DNA of 41,877 nt from Bryobacterales bacterium (GTDB lineage Bacteria; Acidobacteriota; Terriglobia; Bryobacterales; Bryobacteraceae), in assembly GCA_947446025.1 (NCBI GenBank), contig CANFEY010000044.1, positions 1 to 41,877 of the forward strand, written 5' to 3'. Of this stretch, positions 9,489-11,212 are shown piece after piece (position 1 is the stretch's first letter; the number at the start of each line of letters is the position of its first letter). The notes below the pieces were generated by a model. It ran no database searches. It saw only the letters and a program-made list of their open reading frames with translations, and was not told the origin of the DNA. The position numbers were made by a program, and so were the translations under genes.

Positions 9489-10448
9489 TTATGCGGCCTC
9501 CGTCTTGGGCGTTTCCGACGCCGGGTCTTTGCCGGAGGTAAGTTCGAGGAAGATGTCTTCGAGGCTCATGCTGACGCCGTGAAGTTCGTTGAGCTCCCAA
9601 CCCGAGCCGATCACCGCTTTGGCGATCTCCGGGCGCACACGCTTTTCCTTCTCGGCTTCGATGGTGAATCGTCCGTCCGCGGCGGCTTCCACCTTCTGAA
9701 TGCCGGCAATGCGGTCCAGCCGTTCACGGATGGATGCCTCATCCGCGCCCAGCACTTGGATCTGAATCGTTTCGGCCCCGCGCAGGTTGGTGGTCAGGTT
9801 CGCCACGGTGTCGGTCGCCACCAGCTTGCCCTTTGCAATGATAACGACGCGTTCGCAGATCTGTTCGACTTCGGGCAGGATGTGCGTCGAAAGGATGATG
9901 GTGTGGTCACCGGCGAGTCCGCGAATCAGCTCCCGCGTTTCCATAATCTGGTGCGGGTCGAGACCGGATGTCGGCTCATCCAGGATGAGAACGTCGGGGT
10001 TGTGGATGATCGCCTGGGCCAATCCGACGCGTTGTTTGTAGCCCTTGGAAAGCTTGCCTGTCTCTCTGTTGCGGACATCGGCAACGGCGCAGCGTTCCAT
10101 AACTTCATTGATGCGGGCCTGGCGGCCGGCTTTGGGAATGTTCTTGATGCGGGCGACGAAGTCGAGATATTCGCCGACCTCCATTTCCGGGTACAAAGGG
10201 GGGGTTTCGGGCAGATACCCGATGCGGCGTTTCACCTCCATCGGCTGCTTGGCAACATCGAATCCGGCTACCTCAGCCGTGCCTTCCGTGGACGGCATGA
10301 AGCAGGTAAGCATGCGCATCGTGGTTGTTTTCCCGGCACCGTTGGGCCCCAGGAAGCCGACGATTTGGCCCTTGGCGACCTCAAACGAAATGTGGTCCAC
10401 CGCTACGTGGCGGGCATAGCGCTTGGTAAGCCCTTCAACTTTGATCAT
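9489..10448 (-). CDS. ABC transporter ATP-binding protein (GldA-like)
   Basis: This nucleotide-binding subunit (319 residues) powers the adjacent ABC-2 permease. Walker A is GPNGAGKTTT near residue 38, the signature is LSKGYKQRVGLAQAI, Walker B is VLILDEPTSGLD, and the switch His is in STHILPEVE. A C-terminal region of about 90 residues (from GAETIQIQVLG) is the accessory domain common in exporter ATPases. It is the first gene of the leftward four-gene unit. TAGAGT on the coding strand lies only 4 nt before the ATG, a weaker version of the leaderless pattern seen elsewhere. The upstream region, about 105 nt away, holds a 27-nt palindrome shared with the ORF6N pseudogene, so coregulation is possible. 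Confidence 0.95.
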   Translation of the reverse strand: MIKVEGLTKRYARHVAVDHISFEVAKGQIVGFLGPNGAGKTTTMRMLTCFMPSTEGTAEVAGFDVAKQPMEVKRRIGYLPETPPLYPEMEVGEYLDFVARIKNIPKAGRQARINEVMERCAVADVRNRETGKLSKGYKQRVGLAQAIIHNPDVLILDEPTSGLDPHQIMETRELIRGLAGDHTIILSTHILPEVEQICERVVIIAKGKLVATDTVANLTTNLRGAETIQIQVLGADEASIRERLDRIAGIQKVEAAADGRFTIEAEKEKRVRPEIAKAVIGSGWELNELHGVSMSLEDIFLELTSGKDPASETPKTEAA

Positions 10449-10552
10449 AGTGACTCTACTCAGGACGAGCGAAGATGGGTTTCGTACCGCTAAACCTTAC
10501 ACATGATAGTGGGCGGAAGCCGGGGGTGTCAATGTGCTGGAGGTGGGTGAAA

Positions 10553-10579
10553 TTCAAGGTCACAAATTGTGACCTTGAA
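10553..10579. repeat. 27-nt perfect palindrome, copy 1 (upstream of ORF6N gene)
   Basis: Two 13-nt arms (TTCAAGGTCACAA and its exact complement) flank a single central A. The copy lies 53 nt before the ATG of the ORF6N pseudogene and about 105 nt before the divergent ABC ATPase. A one-base centre does not suit an RNA hairpin, so a binding site for a dimeric protein is more likely. An identical copy lies at 10871-10897. Confidence 0.9.
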
Positions 10580-10631
10580 AATCGGGCTAGATTTCTTGAG
10601 AATAATGCCCCACTCAAAAGACCCTTCTACT

Positions 10632-11212
10632 ATGAACAAACTACCGGCTAAGCGCCAACCTGTACCTATCAGAGTCATCGAGCGGAAGATCCACATGATC
10701 CGTGGTCAGTAGGTCATGCTGGATACCGATCTTGCGGAACTCTACCACGTGACTGTCAAGGCACTGAAGCAGTCAGTCCGCCGGAATAGGGGCCGTTTCC
10801 CGCAGGACTTCATGATCGAACTCACCCTGGAAGAAGCTGTCATCGCGCAATACAAAGCAGGCGGAAAAAGTTCAAGGTCACAAATTGTGACCTTGAAACA
10901 AGGACAGAATCCCAAGTACCGGCCCTTCGCTTTCACTGAGCAGGGCGTGGCGATGCTGTCCTCTGTGTTGAAGAGTCCACGTTCCGTGCAGGTGAACATC
11001 GCGATCATGCGGGCGTTCGTCGAAATGCGTCAGGCGGCGGGCACGCACAAGGAACTGCTGCGGCGCGTGAATGATATGGAGGCGAAGACGACGGCCAGTT
11101 CAAGGACGTGTTCGCGGCCATCCGAAAGCTGATGGAGCCGCCCAAGAACCGCATCGGTTTCCCCATGCCGCTGGCTCCGCCCAAGGGGGGTTCGCCCCGG
11201 ATCGTGGGTTAG
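10632..11212 (+). pseudogene. ORF6N-domain DNA-binding protein, inactivated by a stop and a frameshift
   Basis: Read through its lesions, this is a phage-type ORF6N domain protein. It begins MNKLPAKRQPVPIRVIERK and runs to IHMIRGQ. An amber codon at 10710-10712 then stands where family members have Lys (RGQKVMLD), and the frame continues [20 protein letters not shown]. The [13 protein letters not shown] motif is intact. After MEAK at 11085-11087 one base appears to be missing. In the next frame the family ending can be read ([18 protein letters not shown], then KNRIGFPMP) as far as the TAG at 11210-11212. Without suppression only a 138-residue fragment from the ATG at 10716 could be made. ORF6N genes are accessory and often mobile. 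Two independent lesions argue for decay and not a single read error. Confidence 0.85.
10871..10897. repeat. 27-nt perfect palindrome, copy 2 (inside ORF6N coding region)
   Basis: This is identical over all 27 nt to copy 1 at 10553-10579, and the A after it also matches. It lies at about codon 80 of the ORF6N frame and encodes the S-R-S-Q-I-V-T-L stretch, which I recall as a recurrent motif of the family (LRSQ-x-VTL). The same DNA therefore serves as protein code and as an operator-like dyad. Confidence 0.9.

Follow-up and report, generated by a model that had tools for sequence, protein, structure and literature searches.

In this study, we identified a palindrome inside the genes of the ORF6N family, located in the DNA that encodes a linker of the protein. 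The in-gene palindrome is a trait of the family, and its two-fold symmetric DNA is likely to be the cognate site of the protein encoded by the same gene. The ORF6N protein very probably reads this palindrome of its own gene as a symmetric dimer. Universality, symmetry, covariation with the recognition helix, occurrence in two reading frames and dependence at the codon level can be read directly from the sequences, and from them we infer physical binding and dimerisation.

The palindromes of the window

The window, that is, the whole stretch of DNA analysed here (41,877 nt of a Bryobacterales genome), contains the palindrome TTCAAGGTCACAA-A-TTGTGACCTTGAA at 10553–10579 and again at 10871–10897 (no strand is assigned to either). 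In both copies, perfect 13-nt arms flank a single central base, and all 27 nt are the same in the two, which confirms the coordinates, arms and identity given by an earlier sequence-only reading. The chance expectation for a second copy with at most three mismatches was a mean of 0.00 in 100 shuffles, and a search of the genome with a degenerate 27-mer pattern of the GGTCRCAA type matched the two window sites only.

The copy at 10871–10897 lies in frame in an ORF6N gene (10632–11212, forward strand) and encodes S-R-S-Q-I-V-T-L-K. This gene is not an intact ORF, although its PF10543 match is above the curated cut-off (27.8 bits): it is disrupted by an in-frame TAG at 10710–10712 and, relative to the ortholog from the same genus, by a one-base frameshift near 11085, a disruption absent from the sequence-only reading. 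The profile score is 100.4 bits when the gene is read across the TAG and 83.5 bits for the ORF after the TAG (10716–11132, forward strand), which retains the recognition helix and the palindrome. The in-gene palindrome is intact despite the broken gene. Both window sites are probably relics.

The other ORF6N gene of the same genome is located on a different contig, is open over 197 codons and has a different perfect palindrome in the same place, TTTGAGGTTGCA-AAA-TGCAACCTCAAA, the first sign that the symmetry is kept and the sequence is not. The repeat finder detected no upstream copy of the palindrome at this second gene. The ortholog of the window gene in a genome of the same genus (G187) has the same ABC-transporter neighbour, and its in-gene site differs from that of the window by a compensatory change at pair 11. 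A simple insertion of a mobile gene in the window was also considered; in another genome of the genus (G289) the ABC-transporter gene lacks an adjoining ORF6N gene, but its other neighbour differs from that in the window, so that G289 gives no clean empty site. Separately, positions 10420–10509 of the window, which take in the first part of the ABC-transporter gene and the DNA upstream of it, are identical to G187 at 90 of 90 bases, against about 78% identity on either side; this may reflect a recent exchange, strong constraint or an artefact of the assembly.

Palindromy across the ORF6N family

ORF6N genes were collected from 297 genomes of the same phylum, which represent an even draw, from 80 named genome contigs of many phyla, which are the best 80 of 591 relatives and thus biased to close matches, and from 64 viral contigs. 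An ORF6N match was present in 69 of the 297 same-phylum genomes. The profile found 201 ORF6N domains above 60 bits, and 177 were kept at less than 80% identity; a second fragment at L062 that lacks a site was then excluded, leaving 176.

At least 10 of 12 complementary pairs were found in the linker window of 167 of the 177 domains and in the upstream control window, searched with the same freedom of centre, of 4 of 177. Perfect arms of at least 9 nt were present in the linker window of 100 of 177 domains, against 1 of 177 just upstream and 3 of 176 just downstream, and 81 perfect-arm sites are centred 63 nt after the RFP codon. The arm sequences vary from gene to gene. The site centre was taken as the best within a 120-nt stretch, and the codon null was scored at that identical centre: real genes have on average 11.1 of 12 positions paired, compared with 5.3 after synonymous codon redraws. 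Palindromy in ORF6N homologs therefore far exceeds what the codons require, the point that the sequence-only reading had proposed to check. Complementarity is 86% at position 13 (41% expected from the column make-up), drops to 45% at position 14 (30% expected) and stops at ±13. The site has the two-fold symmetry expected of the cognate operator of a dimeric helix-turn-helix protein.

Covariation of the recognition helix and the site

We calculated the mutual information between every protein column and the site bases in the 161 genes that read the site in the commoner frame (frame A), with the linker excluded. Pairs 5/4 covary with column 34 (z 62) and column 31 (z 28), the next column reaching 8.4, and base 7 covaries with column 30 (z 37.5; next column 5.0). 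In the left arm of the 176 sites, residue 34 is Gln with CA in 93 of 95 cases, Glu (as RE) with CG in 35 of 38 and Lys with TC in 11 of 11; the poorest fit is that of Arg with GC (17 of 27). Taken together, the residue and base combinations come close to a code: A/V/T-Q with CA, R-E with CG, N-K with TC, N-L with TG, x-R mostly with GC, and Lys30 with G7. As expected of a cognate operator, base identity in the site depends on the recognition-helix residues. Arm positions 8 and 10–13 covary not with the helix but with columns 84–89 directly after the linker (z up to 19), which may reflect a second contact or plain co-inheritance of adjoining sequence.

In the tree used for the code changes, which was built without the covarying columns, the number of changes is 49 for Q34 and 50 for CA. 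All six supported independent pairs for Q34 and CA are concordant; for the other classes, the concordant numbers (averages over pairings) are 4.6 of 6 for E-CG, 4.6 of 5 for R-GC, 2 of 2 for K-TC and 5.1 of 7 for Lys30-G7, with at most 0.1 in the opposite sense.

The codons of the window gene that covary with the site span 10758–10772 (forward strand) and include Lys at 10758–10760 (alignment column 30), Ala at 10761–10763 (column 31) and Gln at 10770–10772 (column 34). Its in-gene site has CA at −5/−4 and G at −7, in agreement with the residue code for Lys/Ala/Gln; the three residues predict GG-T-C-A, which are the observed bases. An AlphaFold model of the ortholog of the window gene (mean pLDDT 84) places the code residues, Lys43, Ala44 and Gln47, in helix 42–51, the second helix of a helix-turn-helix, and the palindrome is encoded by a low-confidence linker (residues 81–100, block means 51 and 66). 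Comparison of the fold with the PDB gave no match at E ≤0.001 (the best was a Ski-like (SnoN) fragment, E 0.44), and the sequence search found no solved ORF6N relative among its four matches up to E 1, the best of which was a designed coiled coil.

Two further features of ORF6N proteins were observed. A nearly invariant I-G-F tripeptide near the C-terminus (residues 181–183 in L043, the same-genus ortholog), after a long helix, is present in at least 90% of 65 aligned proteins, and this stretch is possibly a partner-binding tail. In L013, L028 and L029, a good ORF6N domain is accompanied in the same stretch by a weak second one, ORF6N-like, whose code positions have Lys-Ala/Asp-Ala.

Based on these data, we propose that the N-terminal helix-turn-helix of ORF6N would bind the in-gene palindrome as a dimer, with recognition-helix residue 30 reading base pair 7 and residues 31 and 34 reading base pairs 4/5. 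The predicted contacts include Gln34 to A4, Arg31 and Glu34 to C5-G4, Lys34 to T5-C4, Arg34 to G5-C4, and Lys30 to G7; the part of the protein that the site itself encodes is a linker with little structure. The earlier suggestion that the gene carries its own operator fits these results, since the in-gene site is operator-like in its palindromy and in its covariation with the encoded recognition helix.

Reading frames and synonymous codons

Among the 176 sites, 161 are read as R-S-Q-I-V-T-like codons (frame A), and the same type of palindrome is read one frame over in the other 15 (frame B), e.g., as V-V-T-N-C-D-H. Eight frame changes are needed on the tree. The code is also valid in the frame-B sites, where the encoded amino acids differ. 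In frame A, positions −4 and −7 are third codon positions, so that the helix residue predicts silent choices: Gln34 occurs with the serine codon TCA in 86 of 86 cases and Glu34 with TCG in 30 of 31, while K30 occurs with the arginine codons AGG/CGG in 70 of 70 and with the lysine codon AAG in 10 of 10. Because of this silent codon dependence, a contact between linker and helix within the protein cannot account for the covariation.

The viral genes L170 and L172 are 85% identical in their N-terminal and 82% identical in their C-terminal parts, and both retain the TCACAA half-site and the RAQ residues; their linkers differ and are in different frames. The ORF6N proteins of the viral contigs L170, L172, L167 and L178 are almost the same, except that their linkers are exchanged and their palindromes lie in different frames, which looks like segment swapping at the site.

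Judged from the sequences, the conserved entity is the DNA site and not the peptide; the linker peptide, and even its frame, follows the DNA. S-R-S-Q-I-V-T-L, which the sequence-only reading took for a recurrent ORF6N motif, is one of many peptides encoded by the site. The further proposal of that reading, that the motif may owe its conservation partly to a binding site in its DNA, is supported by the codon-excess palindromy, the two frames and the covariation with the helix.

Application of the code to further genes

We applied the code to 38 further genes from plasmids, more viral contigs and more genomes of the phylum, each less than 80% identical to all earlier ones. At least 9 of 12 pairs were found in 33 of them, and the other five were kept in the counts. 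The residue-34 rule was correct in 58 of 76 half-sites (27 of 76 for a constant guess of CA), and base 7 was predicted correctly in 60 of 76. L230 was scored as an error because of a wrong centre, although an earlier trial had located its fitting site. That trial, on 17 of the 38 genes with a finer pair table and a cruder parse of the helix, was correct in 24 of 34 half-sites (constant guess, 18). The residue-34 rule was simplified after the trial, which left 21 of the 38 genes untouched; in these, 30 of 42 half-sites were correct (constant guess, 11), and both half-sites were correct in 15 of 21 genes. Three of the six untouched genes that fail have a weak palindrome or none (score ≤8).

Two plasmid loci have distinctive surroundings. 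A Parabacteroides plasmid carries three tandem ORF6N genes with helix codes of two kinds (L231, 1325–3058), and in a Treponema saccharophilum plasmid, an ORF6N gene lies between the genes for a DNA methyltransferase and a restriction subunit S (L234, 538–4700).

Possible functions of the in-gene site

We lean towards negative feedback as the likeliest use of the in-gene site: the bound dimer would block transcription through its own gene. Such a site would serve as a portable operator, carried along by the gene to any promoter behind which it lands. Because a site inside the gene travels with it, this arrangement fits the patchy distribution of the family (the 69 genomes mentioned above), its unrelated neighbours and its presence on plasmids and in viral contigs. 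Within genomes, 1 of 25 ORF6N pairs shares a code, against 5.6 expected (P 0.012, with pairs that are not independent), and an earlier count gave 0 of 12 against 2.1 expected (P 0.10). Rare sharing of the code among paralogs is expected if each protein must act on itself alone. It is thus conceivable, at a little under even chances, that ORF6N genes are self-addressed units in which specificity and in-gene site coevolve as lock and key under a family-wide code, so that paralogs tend to differ and each regulates or marks only itself.

In helix-turn-helix repressor families such as LacI, a few recognition-helix residues determine a few operator bases. The ORF6N code differs from LacI-type codes in that a single gene is enough to read it, as the same stretch encodes both protein and site. 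The nearest mechanism to the proposed feedback is that of LacI, whose synthesis is kept down by the repressor itself through a transcriptional roadblock at O3, an operator met by the transcripts of its own gene (PMC3711431). The LacI operator also serves the lac operon, whereas the ORF6N site is internal to the coding sequence, at its middle, in almost all members examined, and a roadblock at that place is hypothetical.

Alternatively, the site may be an origin, loading or recombination site that is read by the protein of the same gene, which we consider unlikely. The layout resembles that of ori-lambda, as the accounts drawn on here place the binding sites (iterons) of lambda O in the middle of its own gene (PMC7466680; PMC6022878) and the ORF6N site too is in mid-gene of its own protein. 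ORF6N genes also occur on plasmids and in viral contigs. However, lambda has four iterons (six in the phages compared in PMC7466680), whereas each ORF6N gene has a single palindrome; we found no array of several iterons, and the bins adjoining the in-gene site are at background. The lambda iterons serve replication, whereas ORF6N occurs across many bacterial phyla, for the most part with ordinary genes as neighbours, and many carriers, as in the window, are lone genes among ordinary chromosomal genes. In two small Segatella plasmids that carry ORF6N, replication initiation is assigned to another gene. Unlike what those accounts describe for lambda O, the ORF6N site evolves in step with the recognition residues throughout the family.

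ORF6N is grouped with KilA-N, Bro-N, Rha and other phage regulator domains. KilA-N and Rha were considered as carriers of the same trait; no comparable own site was seen in the nine loci scanned. One of these loci (L212) has a 10/12 palindrome of another sequence inside the domain, and an 11/12 palindrome at L217 is the site of a neighbouring ORF6N gene.

Upstream copies and orphan sites

The sequence-only reading had envisaged a loop between the upstream and in-gene copies as the means of autoregulation, which is improbable in light of the family data; the gene-transfer target that it named as the other option is hypothetical. Among the 176 genes, 22 upstream sites of this type were found at 19 loci, after 6 of 28 candidate palindromes with a centre of another type had been dropped by eye. 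The predicted recurrence of the site upstream thus exists at other loci of the family, but as the exception. In favour of looping, the upstream and in-gene copies match in the window and in L036, the upstream sites cluster 216–371 nt before the in-gene centre, and their similarity to the local in-gene site at positions 4–12 is 0.70, against 0.62 by permutation (P 0.0008). At the discriminating positions 4–5, however, similarity is not above chance for the 22 sites (P 0.12), the local protein's code is fitted by 10 of the 22 (random, 7.8; P 0.20), and the spacing has no clear helical phasing (resultant 0.19–0.32, n=22). The copy at 10553–10579 is also missing in the G187 ortholog. Two-site looping as a general mechanism is not supported by these data, nor are locus-matched upstream operators borne out as a general rule, though the copies are identical in the window. 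In the window, the upstream copy is genuine and agrees with the code of the protein, yet it is accessory.

We also considered the upstream copies as relics of ORF6N genes, and a profile scan of 22 flanks gave no clear match to the linker. The two strongest matches (L079 and L071) fall on the start of a downstream gene, and the weak ones include the orphan site L219.

The non-coding copies, which comprise these upstream sites, the orphans L218–L221 and the triple cluster at L219, would be compatible with a dispersed repeat of the REP kind mobilised by the ORF6N protein. Against this reading, which is very improbable, the sites are rare: the core GGTCRCAANTTGYGACC occurs at 24 places in the 297 genomes, of which 20 lie within ORF6N genes or a short way upstream of one and 4 do not, and the reversed core pattern has zero matches there. 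The many copies of a REP/RAYT-like system are absent from the window's own genome, where the degenerate 27-mer has its two places only. Furthermore, Pfam assigns the two ORF6N proteins of this genome ORF6N alone, plus a sub-threshold Rha match in the window ORF after the TAG. As for the orphans themselves, L218 (1046–1062), L220 (1001–1017) and L221 (1004–1020) are located outside ORF6N genes and have extended, near-perfect or perfect arms. L219 (about 940–1060) consists of three palindromes in a row, each with a different core, in non-coding DNA next to an S9-peptidase-like gene; its genome has no ORF6N match, and part of it weakly resembles the ORF6N linker (E 0.08).

An mRNA hairpin that controls translation or RNA stability, in place of a double-stranded DNA site, has still less probability. 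The long perfect arms with a centre of 1–5 nt could fold, and pairing is preserved by compensatory changes. However, a hairpin would favour G-T over A-C mismatches where the third codon base is free, and the reverse was observed (13 G-T vs 45 A-C), so that G-U is not better tolerated and the wobble test rejects the hairpin; moreover, the pairs covary with a DNA-reading helix, which an RNA stem does not need. Conservation of the peptide, or of a linker–helix contact in the protein, with the DNA palindrome as a by-product, has a negligible probability: the amino acids of the linker do vary together with the helix residues, since they are encoded by the bases in question, but helix residues track synonymous codons (TCA/TCG serine, AGG/AGA arginine), the same DNA site encodes other amino acids in another frame, and the symmetry is lost on synonymous redraws, of which the synonymous codons and the second frame rule this explanation out.

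Significance

A search of the non-subscription literature, at the level of titles and the beginnings of abstracts, found no earlier description of the in-gene palindrome of ORF6N. If the in-gene palindrome is indeed the cognate site of the encoded protein, a widespread and largely unstudied family of regulators would gain a hypothesis for its function and a predictable DNA target for each member, and a protein–DNA recognition code would be decodable from sequence alone. The family would also provide a clear case in which a DNA-binding site dictates the peptide, the codons and even the reading frame of a coding sequence, and it would show how simply a mobile gene can be built to carry its own control.
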